Shown here piece after piece: positions 1,494-20,330 of a DNA stretch of 61,950 bases (positions within the stretch are counted from its first letter, which is position 1; each line of letters opens with the position of its first letter). The notes below the pieces were generated by a model. That model made no database searches, was not told where the DNA came from, and worked only from the letters and a program-made list of their open reading frames with translations. The stretch is from a bacterium. Its GTDB lineage: Bacteria > Bacteroidota > Ignavibacteria > Kapaibacteriales > UBA2268. A program made the position numbers and the translations under genes. Location: positions 1 to 61,950 of the forward strand of contig JANJTB010000038.1 in assembly GCA_024711295.1 (NCBI GenBank), in the 5' to 3' direction.

Positions 1494-4400
1494 TTAATAT
1501 TCTTTAATATTTATGAAAAGCTCCGGAGGATTAATCCTTTTGCCATGTAGCCATATTTCGTCGGGAGTACCACCCCACTTGTTTGCAAAAATATCTCGGT
1601 TTCTCTCCAGGCGTCTGCGATAGGCATCATTTCCATCATCTGCAAAGCTTCTGGACCTGTAATGATGCACGAATACATATTTCAGCACAAGCGCTTTGAA
1701 TCCCGCTACCTGTGCTCTCATACAGTAATCATCATCTTCGTAATTCCCTGGGCTGAATATCTCGTCGAGACCACCAATTCTATCAATAACATCACGCTTG
1801 ATCAATGTGCAGAAAAATGCCAATCGTGGGAATTCAAAAAATTGTCCTGAGTATTGTGAATCTAAATCTGAAGCGAATTTGAGCAATTCATCAAGATTTG
1901 TGTAGTTGCAATCTTTCAGCAGCTGAACACCGCTGATGTTATTCGACATCGGACCAACCATGCCAATCTCATGACTCATTTCGATTGCCTCAATCATTTT
2001 GCCTAACCATCCGGGAGTAACAACTGTGTCATTATTACCAATGAGTATATACTTGCCTTCTGCTGCTCTAAGTCCCTGATTTACACCCTTTGGGAATCCC
2101 AAATTTTCGGGATTGGTGATAACTTTAACATTTTTTCTTTGATTCTGCAAATCTTTGAAATAGTTTGGTATATTATCACGACTGCCGTTATCAACGAGTA
2201 TCAGCTCGAAGTTTTCGGGAGTAAATGCATAAATTGAATCTATACATTCTTTGGTATATTCATATTGATCTTTTGCCAAAATAATGATTGAAGTCAGCGG
2301 AGTATTATTTTGCGATTTGGGGCTGCTAATATGGTAAACCGGATCAGACGGTCTGAACCAATCAATACCCCATAGTTCCATAGGGTGGGGGACATTATTC
2401 TGACCATAATATTTCTTGAGCTTTTCGAACAATGCATCAGTGCTTTGCTGAACCAAATTATCCGTATGCGATTTAGCTTCAGTTCTGAAACTTGCCTGCC
2501 CCACATGATAAACAAATGAATCTAAAGCAACACCGAGTTTGCCTCCATTAGTCCGAATTCTCCAGCTCAATTCCAAATCATCATTTCCCAAGAACAAATC
2601 TTCGTCCAGTCCGCCATACTTTTCAATAAATTCACGTCTAACAGCTAGACAGAAACCAATAAGCAGTTTAGTCTCGACAATCTGCCCTTTGAAATTCTTA
2701 TTAAAATAGTCGGCAACATCAGGTAAATTCCAACCGCTAAGATCGTCTTTGGGATAAAGTTCCATCCTCTGATGCCCCGCTACTCTGTTCGAAACCGGTC
2801 CCACAGCTGTTAATTCATTATCTCTGAAATGTGAAGTGAGATTGTTTAGCCAGTGATAATTGACAATTGTATCAGGGTTAAGCATGATTACAATAGGATT
2901 TTTACTGAGTCTGATACCCACATTTGTACCTGCAGAAAAGCCGATATTTGCAGAATTTCGAATTAATTTGAAAGCGTTATTACCTTCAATAATTTCATTC
3001 GTCAACCGGATGGTATTATCCCGTGAGTTATTGTCAACAATTATTACCTCGTCACCACTACGCAAGCTTTGCTTTACAGAATTAAGACAATTTTCGATTG
3101 TAGCGGCTGAATTATAAGTAAGAATAATAATGGAAGCAGGGTAATAAATGTCTTTGTTTAATTCCTTGTTAATGTTTTTATAAGCTTTAATTTGGTTGTT
3201 ATTTACAAATACTTTTTTATCTTCATTAATAATAAAATCAGGTACAATTTTATTCATCCATTTATTGTGTAGTCTTATGACACTATTTTTTACTCCTGAA
3301 AGTCGTTCCGGACCGCTTTGAGATTCCAAATGATATACAACTGACTTAGGTTGATAAACTAATTTATACCCCTTTTCTCTTAACTTAAAGCAGAAATCAA
3401 CATCCTCATAAGCGTTCCAATATTCTTCATCAAGTCCACCTACTTCAAAATATCTTGACTTACGAATAAGTAAGCATGCACCTGTAAGTGCTTGATACTC
3501 CATCAATATATTTACTTCTGGGGCTGATTTGGAATATCCATAGTATAAATGTCTAGCAACTAAGTGATCACCAAAAGGAATGTCCTTTACAATTGCAACA
3601 CCGGCATGTTGAATTTTTTCGTTTTGAAATAGGAGTTTCGAGCCAACAGCTGCAACACTTTTATCATTATCAATAATATCTGATAAAGGATTTAACCAGT
3701 TATCAGTTACGACTGTATCATTGTTAAGCAATAGAATATATTCATATTTAGCTAATCTGACACCAATATTATTGGCTTTGGCATATCCCAGATTGTGAGT
3801 ATTCCGAATATAGATAATGTTGTTATATTGTTTTGAAAAATTACTGATAATTTGTGCTGTATCATCAGTAGAGCCATTATCAATGATTATTAATTCAAAA
3901 TTTTTAGTGTCGGTATATTTATAAATTGATTCGATACAATTTTTAGTCAATTCCGACTTATTAAATACGGGAATGATGATAGAGACAGGTTCATTCAAAG
4001 TGTAAGTACTCAAATTATTATGATAATGCTCCACTTCTAATAGGTTTTTGTGTTTTATTAGGTTAGCAAAAACATCGTACCATTTTACAAAGTGTTTTTG
4101 AATGGTATAAGAACTAAAAACAGCATTTTTGGCATTACTAGCTATCTGCATCCTTATATTAGAATTATCAATAAGGTAGCAAACGGCTTCGAACCACTCA
4201 TCATAATTATTATTGACAAGAATTCCTGTCTTATAATTTTCTATATTCTGATAGGGTGCAATATTTGAGAAAACTCCTGCTGTACCACATGCGGAGTACT
4301 CCAGCCATTTAATATTCGATTTTGAACAATTAAATGTGTTATCTTCTAATGGAACCAGGGCAATATCAAAGTTTTGGTTAGCCATATCTTTAGCATATTC

Positions 4401-7400
4401 AAAGTAGTTATGGTTGTATGCTTTGTATTCAAAAATGTTGTTATACGAGAGCAATTCACTAATTGCGTTACCCCATAAAAATATTTGCACTTTATCATTA
4501 TATTTAACAGCTATGTTAATTATAACATTTTTAATCATTTCCAAATCCGCGTAATGCGTTGGTGTACCGGCAAATATAATCTTAATGTAAGGTGAATTAG
4601 TTTTGTTTTTCGTGTTATTTTCCCAAATTAATTCATCTAAATAATTAGGAAGCACTTCAATTTTATTATTGAAATTTGAATATAATTCTTTCAAAACTTC
4701 GGTAGAAACTGTTACAAAATCAGCTTCCTTAATAAATTCCTCAATTCCATTGCTCATAGATGAAATTAATTTATATTGTGGATGTGATTCCTCAATGTTT
4801 GTAAGAGCGTCATCTGCTTCATAAATAATTTTTAGATCTGGATTATTTGAAAGATATTTTAATTTTGATGGCTTAATGTAATTAGCCATTTCTCTTTGTA
4901 CAATAATCAAATCAACAATAGAAATTTTTTCTTCAATAAGACTTAGTGTTTTATTCCTCTTCTCAACAATATCAACTACTTCAACTAAGCCCTGGGATAT
5001 CATAATTTTCAATGGACCTTCGATTCTAAGAGAAAAACAAGCATTTTGCTTTTCACTTAAAGTGAGAATACCTATTTTGATAGGATTTTTATGTCCATCA
5101 TCATTTGATATGATCATTTTATGACCTTTTGCGCTATCAAATTTGTTATGATAATGTTCATTATAAATTTTTGACCAGTTTAATGCATCTTCACTGATTG
5201 AGACTATTTTGGTGTTAAATTTCGTTAACCTCTTTATAATGTTAGGGTTATTATCAATTTGCATTATCCAGTATTTTAACTCATCAAAATTATTATTCTC
5301 AAAAATAATAGAATTCTCAAAATGTCTGAGTACTTTGTCGCCACCACTGGTTTTTGAAGCTAGTACAGGAACTTTGGCAGAAAGAGCTTCCCTGATTACA
5401 ATTCCATAAGTTTCAGATTCTGATGGGTGAATCAACAGATTAATTTTTCCTAAAATAAATGGCAAATCTTCAGGTTTGTAAGCGCCATTATATTTTATAT
5501 TTGGGTATTTATTAATCATTAGCATGAGTTGATTAATATCCTTGTCTGACCCACTTCCATAAATCTCAAGATTGGACTTTGAGTTTGCACTGACAAATGT
5601 ATCAATAAGCTTAAAAATATTTTTCTGCGCATTAATGGTTCCCAGGTATCCGTAAACAATATTTTCTTCATTAAGTTTTGAATGTTCTTTGTTGACATGC
5701 TTTATACCCAATGGCACCTCTAAAATTCTGTCTAAAAATCCATGATTAATGAATACTGTACCTACAGAATCAGTTGGTGAAGTCACAAGTTTAGCTTTAT
5801 TAAATGCCTTATAAACAAAATTAAACCGAGCTTCAAAAAAATCAACGTAATTTTTATGAACTTTTTCTGACAATTTGATAGAATCTCTGCTTATTATACA
5901 TTCTGCACATTTTCTTGCTGTTGTAGGACCTGAGCAAACAGAATCAGTAACATGATTCTTCAAGTATATTGTATTGCAAATTGTATAAAAATCGTGTAAA
6001 GTAATAAAAACATTTTTACAGTATTTTTCTGCATAATGGAAAAAGCTCAAAGGTAAATTTACTATGTGTTGAAAATGTATTATGTCAAATTTATTTACAA
6101 GAAGAAACTTTTCAAATAATTGTTCAGCTTCAATATTGTAAATACTATCCTCAAGTACCTTAAAGTCATAATTGCTTCTTAATTGAAATGTATTTAGTCC
6201 GTCGAAATAGGATTGAGTAAGCATATATTTATCAATACTTTTATCATTTAACGGATAGAATATTGACACATCGTTACCTAATTTGGATAATTCTTTAGAA
6301 AATTGATATGTATAAACTTCAACCCCGCCATAATGTAAAGGTAAAAAATTATGAGCAACAATTAATATTTTCTTTGATGAAATAGGTTTGTTTGAGTTGG
6401 TGATAATTTTTTCAAAATGTACAATTTTATCTAGATTTTGTGATATTTTTCTTTCATTAATTTTCCTGATAACCAATGCAAAGCCACTACTCTCTAAATC
6501 ATAGTTATCCTGTACTTCAATTATATCCCATTGAACCCCTAAATTATTTATTATCCATTTGCATATCTCAACAACATCTTCAGTTATCCATGAATGTTTT
6601 AGTTTATTGCCAAAATCACTCTCTGATAAAACATTCCAATGACTGCTAATAACGTTCTGCAAAGTAGTTCTTAGATGGGTTTTAGAAGGCACTCTATCTT
6701 TATGTGAAACAATAATTATAATTACCCCGCCAACTTTGCATATTCTGTCCCATTCTAACAGATTATGTATGGGATTTGGAAGATGTTCTAAAATAAAAGA
6801 ACTTAGGATAAAATCCTGACAGCTATCAGGCAAAAATCTTTCTTTTCCCACAGTAATAGTATCATAATAAGGTTCTTTATTATTAAATTTAAATTCATTT
6901 TTATTAGAAAAATGGGGTAGGAAAGTAGTAGTGTCATCATTTACTGGATCAGCATCAGATGAAAAATCGTCTGATATTTCTATCTCAATGCCCCTTGATC
7001 CGATTAGATATTTTTGTAAAAGTTTACTATATAAGGGTTTGTTGTATGACTTATTTCTTTTGTTGATGTTATTATTAAATTCATTTCTGATACTGCCACT
7101 TAAGTATATTTTATCAATTTCAAACAATAGTAAACTTTTGTCTGAATAAATACCATTATCTTCTGTGCACTGTTCATTAATTATTAATAATGGTTTAATA
7201 AAATTAAAAGGTGATACTTGAAGATTAATTGGTCTCCAATCACCTGTTCGAATATCATTGTTTTCATAACGATTTGTAAATGAAGTTGTCAATAAGTATT
7301 TAGAACCGGACTTTTTTACATTCTCAATTGCTAAAAAAATATCTTCATAAGAAAAATGAACCAAACAATCACGAATAATTACTAAATCAACTTTTGGGAG

Positions 7401-10400
7401 CTTATCAGTTTTCAGGTTATAATTTTTGAATGTCTTGTTTGGGGCAGCATAAATCATTTTATTTCTTTCAATAATCTCATCAACTATATCTGCACCAATA
7501 TAGTTAACAGAGTTTAGATCAACTTCTTTCATCCAGTTAAAATCACCGCACGGAATATCTAAAATTGATTGTACTTTTAGATTTCGTATTAGTTTTGGTA
7601 GAACTTTTCTGATTACTTGAGTTTGCTCTAAAGTTGAGCCTGGACCGGAAACCGACTCTTCACTTCCCCATGCATTATTTTTGAAAATATTTTCAAAAAT
7701 GGGTTTTTCAGTACCATTATTTTTAATAACTTTATTCTGCTTGCCGGACTTGATGCCTACTTCGTATCTGGAAGCTTCATTCAGGCAATACATTCCAAAA
7801 TCGTATTCACAATGTTTTGCTCCCAGCATCCATGGCGGATAATGTTCAAGTGCTTTGTACCCCAAATTCTTAAGTATATTGGCTTTGTTCAAGTCCGATT
7901 CATTGCTTATGCCTTGTATCCTGAATAACTCAAAGATAAATTTTTTTTGTCTATACTTAGTGAAAGTAAAAGAAATCTCTTCATTTAGTCTCTCACTCTG
8001 AAACGAGAGACTGTCAGGATTTAAATAATACAATCCCAATACTTGGTTGATATGATAGGCTTTTAATTTCAGGGCAAATCTTACATTAAAATCGTAATCT
8101 CCGATTATTCTGTAACTATCATCGAAATATCCGATCTGATCGTGGACTTCCTTTCTCCACATGGGATTTATCCCAAACTGGTAATGCAGCAAACAATCAG
8201 GGGCAAAATAATCTGGATATTTATATACTTTCGCTTTGTTATTTTGTTCGAAAGTCTCATTAGGAATTTCAGTCATATAGCAATCGCTGTAAACTAATGA
8301 GATTTCCGGCATATTATCCAAATGATTTGCCATTACTTCCAATGCATCTTTACTATGCCTGTCGTCTGTGTTGGCATTTGTGATATACTTGCCTTTGGCT
8401 AAGCGAATGCCTCTGTTCCAGGCGGCATAAAGTGTTTCTCTTTCCTGTGTTCTATGATAAATAATATTGGGATATTTTGCCTGATACTTTTCGACTATAT
8501 ATTTTTCATTTTCGGGAGAATTGCTGTCAATGACTATAATTTCGAGCATTCCTTTTTTGTATAAGGTTTGCTCAACTAAATCCTTAAGGCATCCATCTAT
8601 AAACTGCTCGGATTTGTATGTTGATACAATTGCTGAAACTATAATATCAGATTGATTAGTTGATGACTTTACATTCAGAATGTTGTAATATAAATTAAGA
8701 TATTTGTTTGCTTGCTGTTGCAAATCAAATTTTTTCTCAGCCGTTGCTCTTGAGTTATGCCTCATTTTCTCCCTGTCCTGATCTAAGCACCACAATATAC
8801 CGATTGCTAAATCATCAGAATTCCTATTTTCGGCTACATAGCCATTAAATTTGTGCTCTACCAAATCGGGTACTCCACCAATGTCGAAGCCGACAACAGG
8901 GGTTCCGCAAGCTAAAGATTCTATTACCACCAATGGAGAGTTATCTTCGAGCGAGGGTATTACAAATACATCTGCTACCGAATAAATATCTGCCAGCAGT
9001 CTAGGGTCATTGATGTTGCCTAAGGTAAATATCTGATTTTTTAAATTCACATTAATTTTCAGATCAATATTACCGAATGCAAGGTATTTAAATCTTAATT
9101 TATTATGTGCGGTTTCTTCAAACCTTTTTAATGCTTTGAGTAAATAATCAAATCCCTTTCTTTTGTTGGAATAAGCAGCACCGAACAAAATTACTTTCTC
9201 ATTACTCTGTTTATTGATTTTATTGATTAAAGCTTCATTTTGTCTGGGGCTAAAAGTATTGATATCGTATGCATAGTGAATTAATGTACCGGGGAATCTT
9301 CCAAACAAACTGCTTTTTCCTGCTTCATCCAGTAACCATTTACTCGGAGCTACAACATTAATATCTGTTTGTTCATAAAAAACTTCTTTAATTTTGAATA
9401 CTTCGAATGATAAATCGTTCAAATTTTCAGAGCCAAGTTGAGGGCACTGCCCACAATTAATATTGTGTTTATTACAGTAATTTGAGTAATGACAACCACC
9501 GGTAAATGGGTTCATATCATGTAATGTCCAAACAACTTTTTTTCCTTTGAATAAATTACCTGCTTTGCTAAAGTCTATCATTCCTACAACCCAGTGCAGA
9601 TTAATTATGTCTGCATTCAGTATTTCTCTTATTTGTGATAAATCAAGACGCGCATCAGTTGTGGTAAATATTTCGTAGTCTTTTGTCTTGTTGGGATAAT
9701 GTTTCAGAGATGCTTCGATATTATTCCAAACACTGCCGAAAATATCAGAATTTGATTTTCCTGATTTAAGTTTCTTAATACTGTAATAATTGTCGGGTAT
9801 AGCAAAAATTCCATCTTCATCTCTTGTTTTGTTGAGCACAACAAGTATCGAGTCAACACCGATTTCTCTCAGCCCCTTGTTCAGCATATATGCAGCTGTA
9901 CCTGCTCCACCATTATCCTGAGTGCATACATGAACTACTTTCATTTTATGAGATTTTCGAGTTTTGTTATCTACATCATAATAGCTCAAAAAATTGTTCA
10001 TTAATTCTTCAGAATAAAGCATATTATCAGGATGTCTGTTAGCTTGGGTATCTGCTATTTTGGTTTCAAACTTCTCGGTAACACCGCAATGAACTCCTGT
10101 GCCATCCATACCTATATTTTTTATGTGGGATTTGGTTGGATAAATATATACGCCTTTGTGCAGGTAAACTGTCAATAACCATGGCAAAGTCCATACATCT
10201 TTCAGTTTGCCGCTCAGCATATTTTGGAGCATTACCTGAACATCGGTGCCGCCCTGATTAATATCTATACCATTTGCTTCAAGCAATTGCTTCAGCAAAC
10301 CCAAATCTTCGATACGCTTCTGCCAACGATCTTTCCAGGTAGCCCAACCCCAACTTCCTATTCTGGGTACGAAGTAAATGTCATAATGGTAATTTTTTAA

Positions 10401-12728
10401 TAATTCTTCGCTTATATCTACGGAGTAACCGCTAATGCCAAAAATCTGTCTGTTATTTTCATACTTATTCAGACAGTCGTGCATGAATTGAAAGAAATAT
10501 TCCTGTGGAACGCAGTCGTCTTCGAGCAGTATCAACCTGTCGAAAGTCTCAAAAACCTTGTTTACTGCCGACACGATTGATTTTGCAAGCCCCTGATTAT
10601 GACTTTGATATACTACAGTTGGTACTGTCCAGTCAATTTTACTTATCAAATTTCTGGTTTGATTTACCCCTTCTACATCTTTTTCGGATTTTGGAGCATC
10701 AGAATATATAAACAAATTTTTGATATTGTGCTTGCGCAACGAGTCCAGAACCTGTGCAGTGTGCTGTGGTCTGTTGTAAGTCATTAATATTACGGGGGAA
10801 TCATCGTAAGAATTATCTATAACTTCATTTTTTAAAAATGAGTATTCAAATCCGGACTCGGATATTGAAAACGTCTGATAACCAAAATCATGAAGTTTTT
10901 TGATATACAGCTTAGATTTATTACTCTCTACACCCTCGAATCTATCGTGAAATTCGACCAGCAGCTGTGAAATTTGAATATTATTCGCTATTATATGGTC
11001 TATCACGGCATACTCTGCACCTTCTATATCCATCTTCAAAATATCAATTTTAGTATGTCCCAATTCTGCCATAATTGTTTTTAGAGACTTTACAGGAACT
11101 TCTATATAGCTACCGGAGGTTGCACTGCGATACAATAGAGTGTGCGAAACGTGATCAGGATTTTCGGGTGGATAAAACTTTACATAACCATCAAAGTCAG
11201 CAAGCCCATAATCATAATATCTGAAATTATGTGGTAAATTCTGCTGTTTCAACCAATTCAAAGACTTTGGAGTAGGGTCGAATGCAAATATATTTACTCC
11301 ATATATATTTATTACCGATAAATCAAACGATATATCCTCGCCAATTCCGAATGAATAGATAATACTTTTTGGATTAATAAATTCAGATGCAATTGTCCAT
11401 CCGCCATATTCGGTCCCGTGATGTTCGGTTTGTGTGTGGATAATTGAATTATTCATATCTTCTTTACTTTCACCTGTCAAGGCATAATGAATTCTATCAG
11501 TATAATCTTTTGAGGATGTTGTATGTTTATTCGACGCTAAATTCATAATTTCATTCCTTTGATTATATCTTGTTGGGTTTAGTATTTGCAATAAATTGTT
11601 AAGCCTGATCTTCTCTGAAAATAAATTCGAAACCCTTTCTAAATTCTCAATTATTTGATTTTTTGTTAATGGTTTAACGAAATCATTATACGATATACTT
11701 TTAATAAGATTTGCATCATAAATATTGATACCATTATCCCTAAACAACTTGTAGATTGTTGATTGGCTTTTTAGGTAAACTTTTTTGCCCATTAATAAAA
11801 ATGCAATGATGTTACCGGCTGCTTGTGTTCTGTTATGAAACATTAAAACAATATCTACATTCGCTAAAGTATTAATGTATTCGTCAAACGGCATGAACTG
11901 CCTTATGCTCTTCCAATTATTATTAAATACTTTAAAACCTATTTTATCAATTTCATCGCCATATTTATTATTGCCATAACTCAATGGGCAAATTACTTCG
12001 ATACCATAATTACTAAACCTGCCCAGAAATTCTATAGCATCCACATGATTATTAGTAAATGTATCTGAATTACCCAGCCAAATAATTGGCTTAGCATTAT
12101 TTTTACTATCTGTTATACTTATTTTGTCTATTTTTGGATTGTAAAAGAATGGCAGGAATTCAGCTTTGCATGAGTAAATAGCTTTAACAATATCGAAATC
12201 TAATTTGTTCCAATGACAAAAATAGTTTAACCTTGAAAGAAATTGATTTCTGACAGAATAATTTTTTTTATACTTTTCTAAATCGGTATGTATACTTTGA
12301 GGATGTTCGTCAGTTTGTAAATTTGTTAATATTTGTATTTTGTTAAAAATACTCTCTTCATCAATATCAGAAACTAATTTTCTTGTAAATAAATCTACAT
12401 TAAAAAAATCTATTTGTGGTAAGTTAGATAAAAAGTCTCCACCCCAAAAAAATAAATATACAGGAATTTTTTTATCTATATTTTCAATTATTTGCATTAC
12501 TAAATCATGAAACCAATGAATATACACTCTATCATTATTATTAATTCTATTAATAATATCTATTAACACTTTACTACCAAAAGGTGCATGAATACCAGCT
12601 GTGGACTTAACATAGCGGGCTGGTTGATTGAATGTAAAAATATACGTATTTTGTTTTGGAGCAACTGTCTCAGCGTCCAAGATAAAATCATCAATAAATT
12701 TATCATCTATCATAAAGTGATAATTCAT
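1494..12728 (-). CDS. Giant multidomain glycosyltransferase/methyltransferase (3,744 aa)
   Basis: This is one uninterrupted frame with about eleven catalytic units. Approximate residues: 1-395 WecF-like transferase (WGGDFL, WLGNSDTFTNNH); 440-640 FkbM-type methyltransferase (MDIEGAEY); 645-900 glycosyltransferase with ILMTYNRPQHTA and LLEDDC; 929-1355 GT4 (DNGGAGTAAYML, SLEDNSPLVVIESLACG); 1363-1640 GT2 (AIVSTYKSEQFI); 1685-1890 methyltransferase (ILDIPCGDFNWM); 1905-2105 methyltransferase-like; 2118-2500 GT4 (PSESETYGIVIREAL); 2549-2885 GT4-like; 2911-3175, 3194-3455 and 3474-3744 three tandem GT2 domains. The last three share NND/NPD metal-site motifs and a GGLDE block followed by an acidic cluster. 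No signal peptide or membrane segment is visible, so it should act in the cytoplasm, perhaps at the membrane face. It probably builds most of a branched, methylated surface glycan. It is last in the sugar operon, 108 bases after the acetyltransferase. Domain types are clear; sugars and linkages are unknown. Confidence 0.88.
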   Translation of the reverse strand: MNYHFMIDDKFIDDFILDAETVAPKQNTYIFTFNQPARYVKSTAGIHAPFGSKVLIDIINRINNNDRVYIHWFHDLVMQIIENIDKKIPVYLFFWGGDFLSNLPQIDFFNVDLFTRKLVSDIDEESIFNKIQILTNLQTDEHPQSIHTDLEKYKKNYSVRNQFLSRLNYFCHWNKLDFDIVKAIYSCKAEFLPFFYNPKIDKISITDSKNNAKPIIWLGNSDTFTNNHVDAIEFLGRFSNYGIEVICPLSYGNNKYGDEIDKIGFKVFNNNWKSIRQFMPFDEYINTLANVDIVLMFHNRTQAAGNIIAFLLMGKKVYLKSQSTIYKLFRDNGINIYDANLIKSISYNDFVKPLTKNQIIENLERVSNLFSEKIRLNNLLQILNPTRYNQRNEIMNLASNKHTTSSKDYTDRIHYALTGESKEDMNNSIIHTQTEHHGTEYGGWTIASEFINPKSIIYSFGIGEDISFDLSVINIYGVNIFAFDPTPKSLNWLKQQNLPHNFRYYDYGLADFDGYVKFYPPENPDHVSHTLLYRSATSGSYIEVPVKSLKTIMAELGHTKIDILKMDIEGAEYAVIDHIIANNIQISQLLVEFHDRFEGVESNKSKLYIKKLHDFGYQTFSISESGFEYSFLKNEVIDNSYDDSPVILMTYNRPQHTAQVLDSLRKHNIKNLFIYSDAPKSEKDVEGVNQTRNLISKIDWTVPTVVYQSHNQGLAKSIVSAVNKVFETFDRLILLEDDCVPQEYFFQFMHDCLNKYENNRQIFGISGYSVDISEELLKNYHYDIYFVPRIGSWGWATWKDRWQKRIEDLGLLKQLLEANGIDINQGGTDVQVMLQNMLSGKLKDVWTLPWLLTVYLHKGVYIYPTKSHIKNIGMDGTGVHCGVTEKFETKIADTQANRHPDNMLYSEELMNNFLSYYDVDNKTRKSHKMKVVHVCTQDNGGAGTAAYMLNKGLREIGVDSILVVLNKTRDEDGIFAIPDNYYSIKKLKSGKSNSDIFGSVWNNIEASLKHYPNKTKDYEIFTTTDARLDLSQIREILNADIINLHWVVGMIDFSKAGNLFKGKKVVWTLHDMNPFTGGCHYSNYCNKHNINCGQCPQLGSENLNDLSFEVFKIKEVFYEQTDINVVAPSKWLLDEAGKSSLFGRFPGTLIHYAYDINTFSPRQNEALINKINKQSNEKVILFGAAYSNKRKGFDYLLKALKRFEETAHNKLRFKYLAFGNIDLKINVNLKNQIFTLGNINDPRLLADIYSVADVFVIPSLEDNSPLVVIESLACGTPVVGFDIGGVPDLVEHKFNGYVAENRNSDDLAIGILWCLDQDREKMRHNSRATAEKKFDLQQQANKYLNLYYNILNVKSSTNQSDIIVSAIVSTYKSEQFIDGCLKDLVEQTLYKKGMLEIIVIDSNSPENEKYIVEKYQAKYPNIIYHRTQERETLYAAWNRGIRLAKGKYITNANTDDRHSKDALEVMANHLDNMPEISLVYSDCYMTEIPNETFEQNNKAKVYKYPDYFAPDCLLHYQFGINPMWRKEVHDQIGYFDDSYRIIGDYDFNVRFALKLKAYHINQVLGLYYLNPDSLSFQSERLNEEISFTFTKYRQKKFIFELFRIQGISNESDLNKANILKNLGYKALEHYPPWMLGAKHCEYDFGMYCLNEASRYEVGIKSGKQNKVIKNNGTEKPIFENIFKNNAWGSEESVSGPGSTLEQTQVIRKVLPKLIRNLKVQSILDIPCGDFNWMKEVDLNSVNYIGADIVDEIIERNKMIYAAPNKTFKNYNLKTDKLPKVDLVIIRDCLVHFSYEDIFLAIENVKKSGSKYLLTTSFTNRYENNDIRTGDWRPINLQVSPFNFIKPLLIINEQCTEDNGIYSDKSLLLFEIDKIYLSGSIRNEFNNNINKRNKSYNKPLYSKLLQKYLIGSRGIEIEISDDFSSDADPVNDDTTTFLPHFSNKNEFKFNNKEPYYDTITVGKERFLPDSCQDFILSSFILEHLPNPIHNLLEWDRICKVGGVIIIIVSHKDRVPSKTHLRTTLQNVISSHWNVLSESDFGNKLKHSWITEDVVEICKWIINNLGVQWDIIEVQDNYDLESSGFALVIRKINERKISQNLDKIVHFEKIITNSNKPISSKKILIVAHNFLPLHYGGVEVYTYQFSKELSKLGNDVSIFYPLNDKSIDKYMLTQSYFDGLNTFQLRSNYDFKVLEDSIYNIEAEQLFEKFLLVNKFDIIHFQHIVNLPLSFFHYAEKYCKNVFITLHDFYTICNTIYLKNHVTDSVCSGPTTARKCAECIISRDSIKLSEKVHKNYVDFFEARFNFVYKAFNKAKLVTSPTDSVGTVFINHGFLDRILEVPLGIKHVNKEHSKLNEENIVYGYLGTINAQKNIFKLIDTFVSANSKSNLEIYGSGSDKDINQLMLMINKYPNIKYNGAYKPEDLPFILGKINLLIHPSESETYGIVIREALSAKVPVLASKTSGGDKVLRHFENSIIFENNNFDELKYWIMQIDNNPNIIKRLTKFNTKIVSISEDALNWSKIYNEHYHNKFDSAKGHKMIISNDDGHKNPIKIGILTLSEKQNACFSLRIEGPLKIMISQGLVEVVDIVEKRNKTLSLIEEKISIVDLIIVQREMANYIKPSKLKYLSNNPDLKIIYEADDALTNIEESHPQYKLISSMSNGIEEFIKEADFVTVSTEVLKELYSNFNNKIEVLPNYLDELIWENNTKNKTNSPYIKIIFAGTPTHYADLEMIKNVIINIAVKYNDKVQIFLWGNAISELLSYNNIFEYKAYNHNYFEYAKDMANQNFDIALVPLEDNTFNCSKSNIKWLEYSACGTAGVFSNIAPYQNIENYKTGILVNNNYDEWFEAVCYLIDNSNIRMQIASNAKNAVFSSYTIQKHFVKWYDVFANLIKHKNLLEVEHYHNNLSTYTLNEPVSIIIPVFNKSELTKNCIESIYKYTDTKNFELIIIDNGSTDDTAQIISNFSKQYNNIIYIRNTHNLGYAKANNIGVRLAKYEYILLLNNDTVVTDNWLNPLSDIIDNDKSVAAVGSKLLFQNEKIQHAGVAIVKDIPFGDHLVARHLYYGYSKSAPEVNILMEYQALTGACLLIRKSRYFEVGGLDEEYWNAYEDVDFCFKLREKGYKLVYQPKSVVYHLESQSGPERLSGVKNSVIRLHNKWMNKIVPDFIINEDKKVFVNNNQIKAYKNINKELNKDIYYPASIIILTYNSAATIENCLNSVKQSLRSGDEVIIVDNNSRDNTIRLTNEIIEGNNAFKLIRNSANIGFSAGTNVGIRLSKNPIVIMLNPDTIVNYHWLNNLTSHFRDNELTAVGPVSNRVAGHQRMELYPKDDLSGWNLPDVADYFNKNFKGQIVETKLLIGFCLAVRREFIEKYGGLDEDLFLGNDDLELSWRIRTNGGKLGVALDSFVYHVGQASFRTEAKSHTDNLVQQSTDALFEKLKKYYGQNNVPHPMELWGIDWFRPSDPVYHISSPKSQNNTPLTSIIILAKDQYEYTKECIDSIYAFTPENFELILVDNGSRDNIPNYFKDLQNQRKNVKVITNPENLGFPKGVNQGLRAAEGKYILIGNNDTVVTPGWLGKMIEAIEMSHEIGMVGPMSNNISGVQLLKDCNYTNLDELLKFASDLDSQYSGQFFEFPRLAFFCTLIKRDVIDRIGGLDEIFSPGNYEDDDYCMRAQVAGFKALVLKYVFVHHYRSRSFADDGNDAYRRRLERNRDIFANKWGGTPDEIWLHGKRINPPELFINIKEY

Positions 12729-12836: not shown

Positions 12837-13484
12837 TCATAATTGCAAAGGACTAAATTCTTTAACTTTTATCGCAGGGACACCCATAACTAAGCAGTTA
12901 TCCTCTATGTTTTTTGTAACCACTGAACCAGCACCAACAACAACATTGCTGCCTATTGATATTCCCGGCAGAATTGAAGTACCAGTGCCAATAAATGTAA
13001 AATCACCTATTTTGCAATTTCCAGAAACATGTACTCCGGGACATAATTCTGAATATTTCCCTATACTGCTATCATGCCCTATTGTGCAATTTAAGTTTAT
13101 CAATGCACCTGTTGATATATAAATATCATTTGTAATAACAGTACCTGTCATAATATTAACTCCGGATTCAATAATATTTCCAAAGTTACCTATATGAGAA
13201 AAAGGTGATATAAGTGAAGTCAATTTGCCGCCGATTTTATTAAATTTATCACTCAATTTATATCTTAGGGATGGATTTCCGATACCCAAAACAAATTTGT
13301 TACATTCAGCGTTAAACAATGTTTCAGCCCTTGAAATATCCTGTATAATTTCAAACTTGTCGTACATTATTGCTTTAGCGTATGTATTAATATCATCATA
13401 AAAGTAAACAGACTCCAACTGATTTAGTTGATGAAAGATTTCAAGCATTTCTTTAGCAAAACCTTTTGCACCTACAATTAACAT
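12837..13484 (-). CDS. Hexapeptide-repeat sugar N-acetyltransferase (NeuD/PglD/VioB type)
   Basis: This 215-residue protein begins MLIVGAKGFAKEMLEIF, a Rossmann-like nucleotide-sugar-binding start typical of the PglD/NeuD family. From about residue 90 it continues with left-handed beta-helix hexapeptide repeats (INLNCTIGHDSSIGKYSELCPGVHVSGNCKIG in part, then IGSNVVVGAGSVVTKNI). The His in TIGHDSSIG fits the catalytic base position of the family. Known members acetylate the 4-amino group of a UDP- or dTDP-4-amino-6-deoxy sugar using acetyl-CoA. It starts 7 bases after the aminotransferase stop, so the two steps are almost certainly cotranscribed and sequential: the aminotransferase makes the amine, this enzyme acetylates it. 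The nucleotide carrier and sugar stereochemistry cannot be read from sequence; VioB is the best guess from its partner. Confidence 0.85.
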   Translation of the reverse strand: MLIVGAKGFAKEMLEIFHQLNQLESVYFYDDINTYAKAIMYDKFEIIQDISRAETLFNAECNKFVLGIGNPSLRYKLSDKFNKIGGKLTSLISPFSHIGNFGNIIESGVNIMTGTVITNDIYISTGALINLNCTIGHDSSIGKYSELCPGVHVSGNCKIGDFTFIGTGTSILPGISIGSNVVVGAGSVVTKNIEDNCLVMGVPAIKVKEFSPLQL

Positions 13485-13491
13485 AATTTCG

Positions 13492-14607
13492 TCAATTATT
13501 AGTTATTAAATTACAAATCAAATTAATTTCATCTACAGATAAATTTGGATACATTGGCAAGCACAACACTTCTTCAGCAATGCTTGTTGCAACAGGCAAA
13601 TTATCTGGCTTGGATGATTCCAAACCTCTATAAGCAGGAAATTGACTTATCAGAGGATAAAAATATCTTCGTGTAAAGACATTACTTTCCTTTAACTTTT
13701 CAAATAGTTGATTCCTCGATAATCCGAATTTTTCTTTGTTTACCAAAATCGGATAATAGGGATATGTATGTCTTAGTCCAGGTACTTCGGCCGGTAAAGT
13801 GACGCCAACACAGTTTTTGAGTTTTTCATTATATATTTCTGCAACATCCTGACGCATCCTTATGGCTTTATCAATATGGTTTAGCTGAAGCAATCCAAAT
13901 GCAGCTTGAAATTCATTCATCTTAGCATTTATACCAGGCGCTACAACAGTAGTTTCATCAGCAAAACCAAAATTTTTTAAAAAATCAATTCGTTTCTTTG
14001 TTGATTCATCATTACATACAATTGCTCCGCCTTCAAATGTTGTGAATACTTTTGTTGCATGAAATGACAGAATTGACATATTACCAAAATTTAAAATTGA
14101 TTGTCCATTTTTTTCAACTCCAAAGGCATGACATGCATCATATATAACCTTTAGCCCATAAATATCAGCAATTTCCTGTATTTTTTCAGTATTACATGGC
14201 TTACCATATACATGAACAGGTAGTATTGCTGTTGTTTTGGGAGTTATAGCCGCTTCAATTTTATTTGGATCAATATTATAAGATACCGGATCTATATCAA
14301 CAAATACGGGCTTAATACCATTCCACCAAAGTGAATGAGTTGTAGCTACAAAGCTAAAAGGAGTAGTGATGACTTCTCCGGTGATTCTCATTGCCTGCAA
14401 AGCTGTTATAATTGCAAGAGTACCGTTTGCAAAAAGTGAAATATGGTTGACACCAAGATATTCACACAGAGCTTTCTCAAACTCCTTATGATATTCTCCA
14501 TTATTTGTTAGCCACTTATTTCCCCATATCTTTTCTAGGAATGGATAAAACTCGTCAAGCGGTGGTAAATAAGGTTGAGTTACAAAAATATTTTTCTGTT
14601 CATTCAT
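13492..14607 (-). CDS. vioA: VioA-like dTDP-4-amino-4,6-dideoxyglucose transaminase
   Basis: This is a 371-residue DegT/DnrJ/EryC1/StrS-family PLP aminotransferase of normal length. It matches what I recall of VioA: FVTQPYLPPLDEFYPFLEKIW, TNNGEYHKEFEKALCEYLGV, FANGTLAI, ITTPFSFVATTHSLWW and IKPVFVDIDPVSYNIDP. The PLP lysine is in SFHATKVFTTFEGGAIV and the ring-stacking/phosphate region is around YDACHAFG. VioA converts dTDP-4-keto-6-deoxyglucose to dTDP-viosamine (Qui4N); WecE would give the galacto epimer from the same substrate. Its ATG lies inside the end of the 51-residue upstream gene (8-base overlap) and it is followed after 7 bases by the acetyltransferase. The N-terminal domain of the downstream giant protein resembles WecF, which uses a dTDP-4-acetamido-sugar donor, so donor synthesis and use appear to share one operon. 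rmlA/rmlB are not in the window. Confidence 0.8.
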   Translation of the reverse strand: MNEQKNIFVTQPYLPPLDEFYPFLEKIWGNKWLTNNGEYHKEFEKALCEYLGVNHISLFANGTLAIITALQAMRITGEVITTPFSFVATTHSLWWNGIKPVFVDIDPVSYNIDPNKIEAAITPKTTAILPVHVYGKPCNTEKIQEIADIYGLKVIYDACHAFGVEKNGQSILNFGNMSILSFHATKVFTTFEGGAIVCNDESTKKRIDFLKNFGFADETTVVAPGINAKMNEFQAAFGLLQLNHIDKAIRMRQDVAEIYNEKLKNCVGVTLPAEVPGLRHTYPYYPILVNKEKFGLSRNQLFEKLKESNVFTRRYFYPLISQFPAYRGLESSKPDNLPVATSIAEEVLCLPMYPNLSVDEINLICNLITNN

Positions 14608-14755
14608 AGATTTTTATCTTCCTTCTCGCCTCTTCATTATCAGGATCATATTTCAGCACTTCTTCGTATTTTTCACGTGCTATGCCGACCTGGCCTATGG
14701 CACTTAATCTTTTTGCTTCGTTCAGCAAGTAGGATATATATTCTCTTTCATTCAT
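14600..14755 (-). CDS. 51-residue TPR-like protein overlapping vioA
   Basis: This short gene begins with ATG at 14755-14753 and ends with TGA at 14602-14600, overlapping the next start by 8 bases in the ATGAATGA arrangement. The protein begins MNEREYISYLLNEAKRL and then SAIGQVGIAREKYEEVLKY, followed by DPDNEEARRKIKIYE. The A-REKYEEVLKYDPDNEEAR pattern is that of a TPR helix pair. It is hydrophilic, with no signal peptide. The tight overlap with the aminotransferase and the protein-like composition argue that it is real. It may act as a small scaffold or partner for the sugar enzymes, or mainly serve translational coupling; both are inference. It also reads as the first gene of the operon, downstream of a structured leader. 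Confidence 0.65.
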   Translation of the reverse strand: MNEREYISYLLNEAKRLSAIGQVGIAREKYEEVLKYDPDNEEARRKIKIYE

Positions 14756-14921: not shown

Positions 14922-15353
14922 TTAGTTTGGGTTTATGTTTACTATTGTGCCTACTTCCTCGATATCTATATTTTCGAGAGATTTTACCGGACAGGCGATT
15001 ATTAGCCCATCGCCATATACCTGGATAAAATGCTTCCATTCCTGCGAGTTAAGTCCTATAGCCAGATTATACTTCTGGCGCGCCACCTTCATTTGTTTTA
15101 TGAAACCTTCGGGCATTATGTAGAGCTTGGATTTCTCGTCAATAGGCAGATGGTCAGCAAGCTTGTATTGACGAATATGGCAAAATTCGTATGCTATCTC
15201 GTCGAGTTTATAATTTACATAGCAGAGGTCTGTTTTTATCCTCACTTCGTAAATCTTGTCATTGAAATAATCTTCGTAATAAAAGTGCAGATAGCCGTTT
15301 TTGAACTCTATCCCTTCTACTCTGGCGTCTGATTTAAGATTTTGCAAAGTCAT
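14922..15353 (-). CDS. Hypothetical protein, 143 aa, paired with uvrD-type helicase
   Basis: I do not recognise this 143-residue protein. It starts MTLQNLKSDARVEGIEFKNG and is mostly soluble beta-plus-alpha in character, rich in Tyr and charged residues (YLHFYYEDYFNDKIYEVRIKT in part). A central helical stretch is IMPEGFIKQMKVARQKYNLA and the C-terminus is SLENIDIEEVGTIVNINPN. There is no signal peptide, membrane helix or metal motif. It starts 17 bases after the helicase stop and is probably translated from the same mRNA. That pairing does not by itself prove a DNA-repair role. Composition and codon use match neighbouring genes, so it is a real gene. Confidence 0.65.
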   Translation of the reverse strand: MTLQNLKSDARVEGIEFKNGYLHFYYEDYFNDKIYEVRIKTDLCYVNYKLDEIAYEFCHIRQYKLADHLPIDEKSKLYIMPEGFIKQMKVARQKYNLAIGLNSQEWKHFIQVYGDGLIIACPVKSLENIDIEEVGTIVNINPN

Positions 15354-17816: not shown

Positions 17817-20330
17817 TTAGAATTTAACAAGTTTTTCGACTATTGAACTAAGTCCATTGTTTGAATCTAAGCTAATATAATAAACACCGGCAGGAAGTTT
17901 AGATATGTCCATTCTGATTACTTTGTCAGTGCTAATACCAGATATCTGAACTATCCCTATACCCAATAAATCGAATATTTTCAGCTTATAATCATTGATA
18001 TTACCATTCTTAGCATCTAAATCTGAGAATGATATTGTAATGAAATCATTAGCAGGATTTGGGTAAATCTGTAATTTTGATAACGAATTATCATCAACAG
18101 AAGTAGGTCCAGTGATAGTGAAATAGCTCTCACTTACAGAGCTCATGTCCCTTTTGTTCTTGATCATAACTTTATAATCGGTACCATTATCAAGTGTTTT
18201 TGGCACTTTCCAGGTTATTGCTCCGAAATAGCTTTCGAAACCATTATTAATTACCGCTACTTCTTCATCACCTTTGTACAATGATACTCTCACAGAATCA
18301 GTAACATTTGTGTTCCAGCGAATAACATAACTTGAATCTTTCTTGAATTCTTCGCCACCATTAGGGAATTGAACTGCAAGATAAGGAGCAGAAAGATTAA
18401 ATGAATAAGCAGAAGACCATTCAGACGAAAGGTCACGATAAAATGATTTGGTTCTCCAAAAATATTCAGTTTCTTTTTGTAAGTTCATTTTATTTAACAC
18501 AGATTTTCTAACATTGGAACTATCAAATACTATATTTTGAAAATCTTTGTCAGTAGCTAACTGAAATTGGAAATAATCATATCGTCCGGTAGCGCTCCAA
18601 ACGAATTTAACATCTTTATTATTCTCAATTTGCCTTTTATTATCAGGAGTCATTAATCTTGGTGACAGTATTTCAGTTGCCTCTCTTTCGTACCCAAGAA
18701 TAAATTCGCCAAAATTCTCAGTCTCTGCAGAAATCTTGTTTTCAGATTCAGAATAAGTGCTGCTAAGCTTAGTGAATCTACCTGTACCGACTTCATTTCG
18801 ATAGTAAAGATTTAACTTGTTTTTGTGCACAACCGATGGAACAGAGTTCAGGTCAATTCTTATCTCGGATTTATGAGAATTTATCATCTGAGGAATCATT
18901 TCATAACGAACTGGAATCACAATAGGCGCTTCACCTTCAAATTCAGGATATAAAGGTGCACATTCTGTTTTGACTACGCTCAGAGCATTGTAAATAAAAC
19001 CTTTTAACTCTTCAAAGTAAATTTCAACATCAGTATTGCCGGACTGATCATTGAATAAATAGGTATTACCCTGCGCCATCTCGTACTTGGTGACATTTGC
19101 TATTGGTTGACAAGCAGGAAGCTGAAGTTTTTGTGCACGATAACTGAAATTTAGTGAAGGCAAAGTCAATCCAAAAGTCATCTCTTTATCAGGTGTAACC
19201 TCTGTAATAGCTCTTTGGAATCCCATAAACATTAATCCCCAGTCAATAAGTGTATTACCATTCTTCAGACGTTGAGCTGATCCCATTGCATAAGCAGATA
19301 TAGGAGGATTATGTTTGTATTCCCAAACTAATTCAGCTTTTTTATTTTCTTCGTCCAATGCATATTCAACTGCTCTTGATGCCCATCCCGATGGTTTCTG
19401 AACGCCATTGTCGTAAAACAAAAGGTTACCATTATCAAGCCTTTTTGCATCATGTTGCATCCTGAAATAATAAGGCTTATCTTTTTCATTTTCACCTGTT
19501 ATTTCGAACTGGTTACCATCACCCCCAAGCCGCCAAATCAGTTTACCGCTGACCATATCAATTTTTACTATCTCAAACGAAGTTGGAAAAGATGAAATAA
19601 TATTTCCATCTTTGTCAAGGTATAATGAATTACCATGTACGTGCTCGAAGATAGCTTTTCTAGGGTCATCCTTTGAAGCAAACAAAGGTATGTGGTCAAG
19701 ACTTCTCCATTGATAAACACAGTTTTTATCTTTATCGAGCTCCTGAATTACAGTTCCAACAACAATAGCATTAGGATTTCCGGTAGGTATTAGCTTGCTC
19801 ATATCAATATGTACATGCTCGTAAGCAATAAGCAGATAGTTACCATTGGGTAGAACTACAAATTCATGCATATCGGCAAGGTAGTCATTGTCAGTTTGTA
19901 TAGAGTCAATTAATTCGTATTTCTCATTCATAATCATGTGCTGAACGTAGATGTTTTGTACCTGCAACGGTCCTGCCTGATACTTATCACCTAATTTAAC
20001 TCTTGTAGCATAAGAAAAAAGACCGTTCGGTTGCACTTTAAAATCAACACCCTGATTCTCCTGCTTCTTGAAATATACAGGATTTCCCTCTTTGTCGAGA
20101 ATCATTATATAATTTGCGTCAGGTGTCTGGACCTGAAAACACTCCATAACTATGCTTCCATCAGCAGGATTGTTTACAGTATCAACCTTAATTGCAGGAA
20201 AATCGTCCGGTAGCTCCGAAAGTTTGCTCATGATCGCGGGTTGCTCGCTGATGAGTTTCATATTTGGATTAATTCCAAATAAGGAAACACTTGTGATTGC
20301 GAGAGTCAATAAATAAGTAAAAAACCTCAT
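17817..20330 (-). CDS. T9SS-exported arylsulfotransferase (ASST)-like protein
   Basis: This 837-residue secreted protein starts with a signal peptide (MRFFTYLLTLAITSVSLFG). Residues of about 65-410 match the arylsulfotransferase beta-propeller: MILDKEGNPVYFKK, DMHEFVVLPNGNYLLIAYEH, EHVHGNSLYLDKDGNIISSF (the His-containing block near residue 230), GKLIWRLGGDGNQF, QHDAKRLDNGNLLFYDNG and SAQRLKNGNTLIDWG. ASSTs move sulfate between phenols using an active-site His without PAPS. After an Ig/FN3-like linker, residues from about 750 form a T9SS type A sorting domain (LQIYPNPANDFITISF, MDISKLPAGVYYISL). Classical ASSTs are periplasmic, so cell-surface or extracellular release is unusual. The catalytic activity is not proven from sequence; it could be a propeller with a binding role. 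It is a single-gene unit ending at a strong hairpin. Confidence 0.82.
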   Translation of the reverse strand: MRFFTYLLTLAITSVSLFGINPNMKLISEQPAIMSKLSELPDDFPAIKVDTVNNPADGSIVMECFQVQTPDANYIMILDKEGNPVYFKKQENQGVDFKVQPNGLFSYATRVKLGDKYQAGPLQVQNIYVQHMIMNEKYELIDSIQTDNDYLADMHEFVVLPNGNYLLIAYEHVHIDMSKLIPTGNPNAIVVGTVIQELDKDKNCVYQWRSLDHIPLFASKDDPRKAIFEHVHGNSLYLDKDGNIISSFPTSFEIVKIDMVSGKLIWRLGGDGNQFEITGENEKDKPYYFRMQHDAKRLDNGNLLFYDNGVQKPSGWASRAVEYALDEENKKAELVWEYKHNPPISAYAMGSAQRLKNGNTLIDWGLMFMGFQRAITEVTPDKEMTFGLTLPSLNFSYRAQKLQLPACQPIANVTKYEMAQGNTYLFNDQSGNTDVEIYFEELKGFIYNALSVVKTECAPLYPEFEGEAPIVIPVRYEMIPQMINSHKSEIRIDLNSVPSVVHKNKLNLYYRNEVGTGRFTKLSSTYSESENKISAETENFGEFILGYEREATEILSPRLMTPDNKRQIENNKDVKFVWSATGRYDYFQFQLATDKDFQNIVFDSSNVRKSVLNKMNLQKETEYFWRTKSFYRDLSSEWSSAYSFNLSAPYLAVQFPNGGEEFKKDSSYVIRWNTNVTDSVRVSLYKGDEEVAVINNGFESYFGAITWKVPKTLDNGTDYKVMIKNKRDMSSVSESYFTITGPTSVDDNSLSKLQIYPNPANDFITISFSDLDAKNGNINDYKLKIFDLLGIGIVQISGISTDKVIRMDISKLPAGVYYISLDSNNGLSSIVEKLVKF

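Follow-up and report, generated by a model that had tools for sequence, protein, structure and literature searches.

The 61,950-nucleotide contig JANJTB010000038.1 of the Kapaibacteriales genome GCA_024711295.1 (Ignavibacteria; UBA2268), analysed over its full length and called the window here, encodes a real and very large multidomain glycan-assembly protein, a known kind taken to an extreme. A single open reading frame (ORF) on the minus strand (1494..12728) runs uninterrupted from ATG to stop for 3,744 amino acids (aa) and joins twelve predicted enzyme units, comprising nine glycosyltransferases (GTs; one GT56-like, one GT13-like, three GT4-type and four GT2) and three methyltransferase-type units. 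We favour, with moderate confidence, a reading in which this giant is a soluble cytoplasmic multi-enzyme that would build a variable, methylated, species-specific lipid-linked oligosaccharide, and that evolves by block exchange. In-frame block exchange is the new point of this analysis; it is best shown at an orthologous site in another genus and is indicated in the genus of the window.

The longest stop-free run in the other five frames of 1494-12728 is 99 codons, and under a model of single-base frequencies the chance of meeting no stop across the giant ORF is log10 P ~ -137. The maximum 19-residue Kyte-Doolittle mean in the protein is 1.54, so that transmembrane hydropathy is attained nowhere. 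The source genome (3.45 Mb) is assembled in 40 contigs, and the contig end is reached 1.5 kb beyond the giant gene. GC content at third codon positions (GC3) varies by block along the gene (0.228, 0.334, 0.227 and 0.365; chi-square p ~1e-13), differences that are compatible with a mixed origin without proving it.

Units were defined with Pfam, run on the full-length protein and on excised segments, and with NCBIfam for D1-D8 only. Motif patterns, read according to their established catalytic meaning, were drawn up after inspection of the sequence and thus form a list of places rather than a blind test. A preliminary description, which gave no strand, had already recognised the single 3,744-residue frame and proposed about eleven catalytic domains in it; the frame and the multi-unit chain stood, and the count rose to twelve. 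It had listed at least four GT2-type units (D5, D10, D11 and D12), three GT4-type units (D4, D8 and D9), an FkbM methyltransferase (D2) and two further methyltransferase-like units (D6 and D7), all of which were recovered, and its glycan-assembly role for the protein is supported. The WecF-type transferase that it named survives as a resemblance to GT56 (D1), the WecF equivalog cut-offs being missed by far. The motifs that it held to be intact in all units except one could be located in the sequence, with variant residues in D4 and D11 and with patterns composed post hoc.

The N-terminal unit D1 (aa 1-395; 11544..12728, minus strand like all units below) is a predicted GT56 (WecF-like) glycosyltransferase, recognised by PF07429, NF002756, the motif GNSDTFTNNH and stand-alone homologs. 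It passes the gathering cut-off of PF07429 (46 bits against 25), with only aa 202-334 matched. Against the WecF equivalog NF052570 it reaches 44.7 bits (cut-off 525), and against its best related NCBIfam model, NF002756, 166.6 bits, below the equivalog cut-off of 457. The GNS...N.H residues are kept in eight of eight aligned sequences. In our surveys, which covered 54 genomes of the family and 391 of the class, homologs of D1 proved rare (6/391 class genomes at E<=1e-10, the window's own included). D2 (aa 415-635; 10824..11486) is a predicted FkbM-family methyltransferase that exceeds the cut-offs of both PF05050 (57.6 bits; 22.7) and TIGR01444 (62.6 bits; 37.7). D3 (aa 638-925; 9954..10817), assigned by profile comparison and a structural model, is a putative GT-A unit, perhaps closer to GT13 than to GT2. 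It scores 20.3 bits against the Pfam GT2 family PF00535, under the cut-off of 23.3; profile comparison with the GT2 modules gave probabilities of 92.8-96.7%, against 0.7% and 0.4% for methyltransferase and GT4 controls, and its LEDD motif is conserved in eight of eight aligned sequences. The D3 model is of low confidence (predicted local distance difference test, pLDDT, 50), and its best Foldseek matches in the PDB were POMGNT1 and GnT-I at TM-scores <=0.40; a PDB profile search with D3 returned no glycosyltransferase.

D4 (aa 928-1352; 8673..9947) is a putative GT4 glycosyltransferase (PF00534, 96.7 bits) that carries D in place of the first E of the E-x7-E pattern, and D5 (aa 1362-1640; 7809..8645) a putative GT2 glycosyltransferase (PF00535, 92.1 bits). 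D6 (aa 1665-1882; 7083..7736), with the loop DIPCGDF, scores under every Pfam cut-off as a cut segment; its assignment as an S-adenosylmethionine (SAM) methyltransferase comes from its eight best relatives, which are stand-alone proteins of 50-57% identity. D7 (aa 1890-2105; 6414..7061) is a degenerate methyltransferase-like unit, identified by alignment with homologs and by PF08241 (22.0 bits, barely above the cut-off of 21.2). It corresponds to the unit at about 1905-2105 whose glycine loop had been described as atypical: four relatives read GIEIGGPS, GLEIGGPS (twice) and CLEIGGPS, whereas D7 reads GIEIEIS, with about seven residues deleted. Having lost the SAM glycine loop, D7 is probably inactive, which leaves no more than two methyltransferase units that are expected to be active. 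Matches to D7 occur in 7 of the 391 class genomes at E<=1e-6, again counting the window's. A single-sequence structural model of D7 had a pLDDT of 33 and was discarded.

The C-terminal part begins with two predicted GT4-type units, D8 (aa 2117-2525; 5154..6380; PF00534, 74.2 bits) and D9 (aa 2555-2895; 4044..5066; PF13692, 27.4 bits, cut-off 27), the latter 38% identical to a module of locus L151. Three predicted GT2 units matched by Pfam follow: D10 (aa 2912-3175; 3204..3995; PF00535), D11 (aa 3208-3475; 2304..3107) and D12 (aa 3490-3744; 1497..2261). Where D10 and D12 carry ED, D11 reads NDD. Among the 17 Pfam families matched by the giant protein there is no carrier domain of the polyketide or nonribosomal peptide synthetase kind, and the same scan gave no tetratricopeptide repeat (TPR) match.

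In three species of the window's genus a glycan region adjoins the same 143-aa flank gene, and the interiors of the region differ. D12 is the last module in all three, at 68% identity between the window and genome G001 and 73% between the window and genome G002. G001 (locus L141) encodes a giant of 2,623 aa whose end is matched by window aa 2885-3740 at 66% identity, the counterparts of D10 and D11 being 71% and 69% identical; before this shared end, the best match between the two giants is 24% over about 200 aa. In G002, D12 corresponds to the last 269 residues of an 868-aa protein with a glycerophosphotransferase module at its N-terminus. Upstream of it are two further multi-module proteins, one of 1,179 aa (GT2- and GT4-like modules plus another glycerophosphotransferase module) and one of 1,175 aa (GT56, GT4 and methyltransferase modules), together with a glycerol-3-phosphate dehydrogenase and a nucleotidyltransferase. 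The breakpoints in these comparisons are the D9/D10 and D11/D12 borders. The next gene of the window, of UvrD type, is on another contig in G001 (71% identity) and has a best match of only 35% in G002, and no alignment was obtained downstream of D12 between members of the genus; correspondence is thus limited to the flank gene and the glycan region. The version of the locus in a sister species, L142 (8210-19593), contains two CDP-glycerol glycerophosphotransferase modules along with a glycerol-3-phosphate dehydrogenase and a nucleotidyltransferase, a set suggesting a glycan that bears glycerol phosphate.

The clearest replacement is seen in another genus, where genomes G056 and G065 (L164 5766-13151 and L173 6075-11507) carry giants at the same locus, with a DNA identity of 88-95% in the flanks. 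These giants agree at 96% over their C-terminal 1,353 residues, and no similarity could be detected between their N-terminal parts of 1,108 and 457 residues; the N-terminal block has been replaced in frame. In G065 the replacement reaches upstream beyond the giant into a 323-aa ORF, the greater part of which it covers. A second pair, G045 and G051, shares 1,891 C-terminal residues at 90% identity and has unrelated N-termini, one of the two frames beginning at a contig edge. The ratio of nonsynonymous to synonymous substitution rates (dN/dS) over the shared C-terminal parts is 0.107 for G056/G065 and 0.048 for G045/G051. In a further genus, the giants of L153 and L158 differ in length by about 600 residues and align to either side of the gap, as would fit a loss or gain of modules. 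Giant pairs were compared after filtering at 45% identity and 200 aa, and the architectures of relatives are partial.

Giants of this kind are widespread. GT frames of at least 1,700 aa occur in at least 25 of the 54 family genomes and frames of at least 2,500 aa in at least 9 of 54, counts that are lower bounds and that include the window's genome in both cases. The frame is therefore not exceptional in the way that had first been supposed, and a uniqueness claim was rejected: a larger ORF exists in the class, in L214 (1568-15163, minus strand), where 4,531 aa hold at least five GT2, four GT4 and one methyltransferase stretch as well as TPRs. The hidden Markov model labels used locally are broad, since the GT2 and GT4 profiles drifted on iteration, and they are given for ORFs >=1,500 aa only. 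Many giants have in common a GT4-type C-terminal module, with TPR matches in all three that were scanned (L156, L145 and L214). This GT4-TPR module is found in 74 of the 391 class genomes at E<=1e-60, in frames of about 380 to 4,541 codons. The giants that carry it are chains of GT2, GT4 and methyltransferase units reaching 4,531 aa, and some close pairs among them have swapped N-termini; the giant of the window differs in having no match to the module, which its genome encodes in a separate frame of 870 codons. The three genomes of the window's genus all have it in separate frames, of 870-948 codons. In L156 the module lies at 4982-6814, and elsewhere it makes up almost the whole of frames of about 600 codons.

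Individual steps of the giant also exist unfused. In L208 and L209, D3 and D4 have homologs encoded by two distinct genes, in the same order and with a 4-bp overlap; in L210 the D4 homolog overlaps its upstream neighbour by 4 bp, and that neighbour gave no D3 match at the threshold used. D4- and D5-like modules lie in neighbouring ORFs of L167, L175 and L176. Some steps are thus kept as separate genes in relatives, and fusion is therefore unnecessary for the chemistry. This observation, with fused and split states found inside one genus, is what a mere operon fusion would predict, in which the units would be independent enzymes with no fixed order, serving perhaps several glycans, and fusion would fix their ratio only. 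The idea partly overlaps the reading that we favour, and we consider it a serious alternative but a rather improbable one: giants are common in the family, and the two pairs with dN/dS values are under purifying selection, which suggests that fusion brings a benefit, without showing coupling of the units.

The genes immediately upstream point to the sugar that D1 may add. On the same strand, 108 bp before the giant, lies a gene for a predicted sugar N-acetyltransferase of the NeuD/PglD/VioB type (12837..13484, minus strand; TIGR03570, 179.3 bits, above the cut-off of 160.8), whose nearest PDB matches are perosamine N-acetyltransferase (4ea7) and VioB (7txp). Seven bp before it is a gene for a predicted DegT-family sugar aminotransferase (13492..14607, minus strand; PF01041, 365.8 bits). 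DesI is its nearest characterised type, in that the DesI equivalog TIGR04427 is its best NCBIfam match (315.9 bits, short of the cut-off of 650); its best PDB match is 2po3, labelled '4-dehydrase', which we take to be DesI. Together, DegT and NeuD match a pathway to a nucleotide-linked 4-acetamido-4,6-dideoxyhexose, the type of donor that WecF uses, and this gene arrangement suggests that D1 adds a 4-acetamido-4,6-dideoxy sugar supplied by the two upstream genes. A DegT gene is adjacent to or one gene away from stand-alone D1 homologs in five of six loci (L082 and L195-L198); the sixth, L194, lies on a 5.1-kb contig and shows no DegT match. The order DegT-NeuD-D1 of L082 (Proteiniphilum) is that of the window, at identities of 62%, 41% and 33%. 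Identity to the window's DegT is 41-43% for the DegT proteins of L196 and L197 and only 26-28% for those of L195 and L198; the latter two may make other amino sugars.

Taken together, the giant would carry most glycosyl transfers (up to nine) and two methylations, by D2 and D6, for one oligosaccharide. An undecaprenyl-type lipid on the cytoplasmic side of the inner membrane would carry the growing chain, which would later be flipped and transferred to a surface lipid or protein, with initiation and flipping performed by proteins encoded elsewhere in the genome. DegT and NeuD would make the nucleotide-linked 4-acetamido-4,6-dideoxyhexose, which D1 would add, perhaps as an outer or capping sugar, and D7 may be a dead methyltransferase retained as a spacer or scaffold. 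The giant would have arisen by in-frame fusion of adjacent glycan genes; thereafter D12, with D10-D11 in two of three species, would have stayed while N-terminal blocks were replaced, altering the outer glycan. In this scheme the C-terminal units would make the inner part of the glycan and the N-terminal units the outer part.

Several observations weigh against this scheme. The order of action cannot be read from the order of the domains. With D1 and DegT below their equivalog cut-offs, the sugar is a class-level guess, and the D1-like module of G002 has no DegT match within the fetched region. No flippase, initiating enzyme or acceptor was found on the giant's contig; the source genome has four PF02397 and five PF01943 matches, all on other contigs. 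Neighbourhoods of giants in other genera are mostly unconserved. Exchange is not universal: collinearity extends over the full length of four congeneric giant pairs (63%, 73%, 76% and 86% identity), and in the G020/G034 pair (80%) it holds up to a contig edge. For the window's own pairs dS is saturated, which leaves no C-terminal dN/dS value.

The sugars could instead be added sequentially in the cytoplasm to a protein acceptor, of an adhesin- or flagellin-like kind, with no lipid carrier. The giant has no membrane segment, the TPR matches in L156 (its end part), L145 and L214 could hold such an acceptor, and a 51-aa ORF with a weak TPR match (14600..14755, minus strand; PF13414, 19.3 bits, under the cut-off and possibly due to chance) overlaps the DegT start by 8 bp. 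A route of this type is known in bacteria, according to the part of the source covered (PMC12871550). We nevertheless judge direct protein glycosylation unlikely: the giant itself lacks a TPR match, no acceptor gene was recognised beside it, although no systematic search was made, and methyl groups and 4-acetamido sugars suit envelope glycans at least equally well.

Known multidomain enzymes bear on a further possibility, that the giant is a repeat-unit polymerase of a lipopolysaccharide or S-layer-like glycan in the style of WbdA, WbbB or WsaE, with iterating modules and a methyl or other cap that ends the chain. In the portions of the literature compared, WsaE of the Geobacillus stearothermophilus S-layer glycan is described as a soluble protein with an N-terminal methyltransferase and two GTs, in a pathway that uses a Wzm/Wzt exporter (PMC2943079). 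Like the giant, it joins at least two GT units and a methyltransferase in one chain, with three units against twelve. WbbB of the Raoultella/Klebsiella O12 O-antigen has C-terminal GTs that polymerise and an N-terminal GT that terminates the chain, a layout resembling a conserved C-terminus with a variable N-terminus; it too places several GT modules in one chain, three in number, and the passages covered mention no methyltransferase (PMC11231755). Set against the Wzm/Wzt export of the WsaE pathway, the source genome has no match to Wzt_C (PF14524), a weak test in which the control was positive in only 2 of 14 genomes, and nine different GT modules exceed the needs of simple repeats. We regard a polymerase as improbable, slightly more so than protein glycosylation. 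An artefact, either a chimeric assembly or a decaying gene, is very improbable despite the fragmented assembly, the nearby contig end, the lost D7 loop and the GC3 mosaic, because the frame is kept across every junction and certain sets of neighbours are found together again in other genomes (D10-D12, in the C-terminal order common to G001, D3-D4 and DegT-NeuD-D1), while motifs are present in the other units and similar frames exist in many genomes.

Two other systems are comparable in part with the lipid-linked multi-enzyme that we favour. The Chlorovirus protein A111/114R, as far as the source text covers it, contains three domains, each about 300 aa long and a putative GT, which are believed to assemble a section of a glycan core (PMC7826918); it resembles the giant in having several GT domains in one protein and differs in being viral, in acting on an N-glycan and in its three units. 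The LFG outer O-glycan locus of Bacteroides is reported, in the part of the paper covered, as a gene series starting with metG and wzx that yields species-specific glycans, often methylated and acetylated (PMC12871550). Like the giant's locus, it holds variable GTs between conserved ends, in separate genes rather than one chain, and the flank gene here is the 143-aa protein; wzx is part of the LFG loci, whereas the giant's contig, ending shortly past the gene, has no PF01943 match. In the titles and abstract openings of open-licence PMC literature, a partial coverage that leaves absence from print unproven, no protein of at least ten GT or methyltransferase units was named.

The 143-aa flank gene (14922..15353, minus strand) has no Pfam match and adjoins the glycan region also in G001 and G002. 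Its family occurs in 7 of the 54 family genomes, in differing surroundings. It was considered as a glycan gene and rejected, its surroundings being different in four genomes from two other genera (three from one, one from the other), where the 6.5-20 kb fetched gave no giant-domain, DegT or NeuD match; the comparison marks it as a flank marker only. A conserved neighbourhood was likewise rejected as a clue to the pathway. Only the DegT cluster recurs, in 7 of 38 locus labels (37 plus the window), the gene being near giants or inside their fetched regions in six of the 37 others; two further clusters, presumably an ABC ATPase and a membrane protein, recur in four labels each. Elsewhere in the window, 17817-20330 (minus strand) encodes an arylsulfotransferase-type protein bearing a type IX secretion system (T9SS) sorting tail, a feature indicative of Bacteroidota. 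Between the giant gene and the contig end, 639-1200 (plus strand) holds a pair of genes for 75 aa and 115 aa, whose sequences suggest a ribbon-helix-helix antitoxin and a MazF-type toxin.

The multidomain glycosyltransferases described in the compared parts of the literature have two or three units; the giant has twelve, and its relatives reach 4,531 residues. The preliminary description had likened it to an assembly line that could make and methylate an entire oligosaccharide before letting it go; such ordered, non-releasing work is hypothetical. Should the units prove to be coupled, the order of most sugars in a complex oligosaccharide would be fixed by one polypeptide, and swapping, expressing and assaying a single gene could reveal the rules of glycan order. 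We propose tentatively, as a plausible generalisation, that this class of giant proteins varies the surface glycan by in-frame exchange of module blocks, the conserved C-terminus adding inner sugars and the replaceable N-terminus outer ones, in a physically coupled multi-step synthase that would be the sugar-chain analogue of modular synthases, though lacking carrier domains. Block exchange in close relatives would then provide natural experiments, in which differences lying mainly in the N-terminal half should map mainly to the outer glycan.

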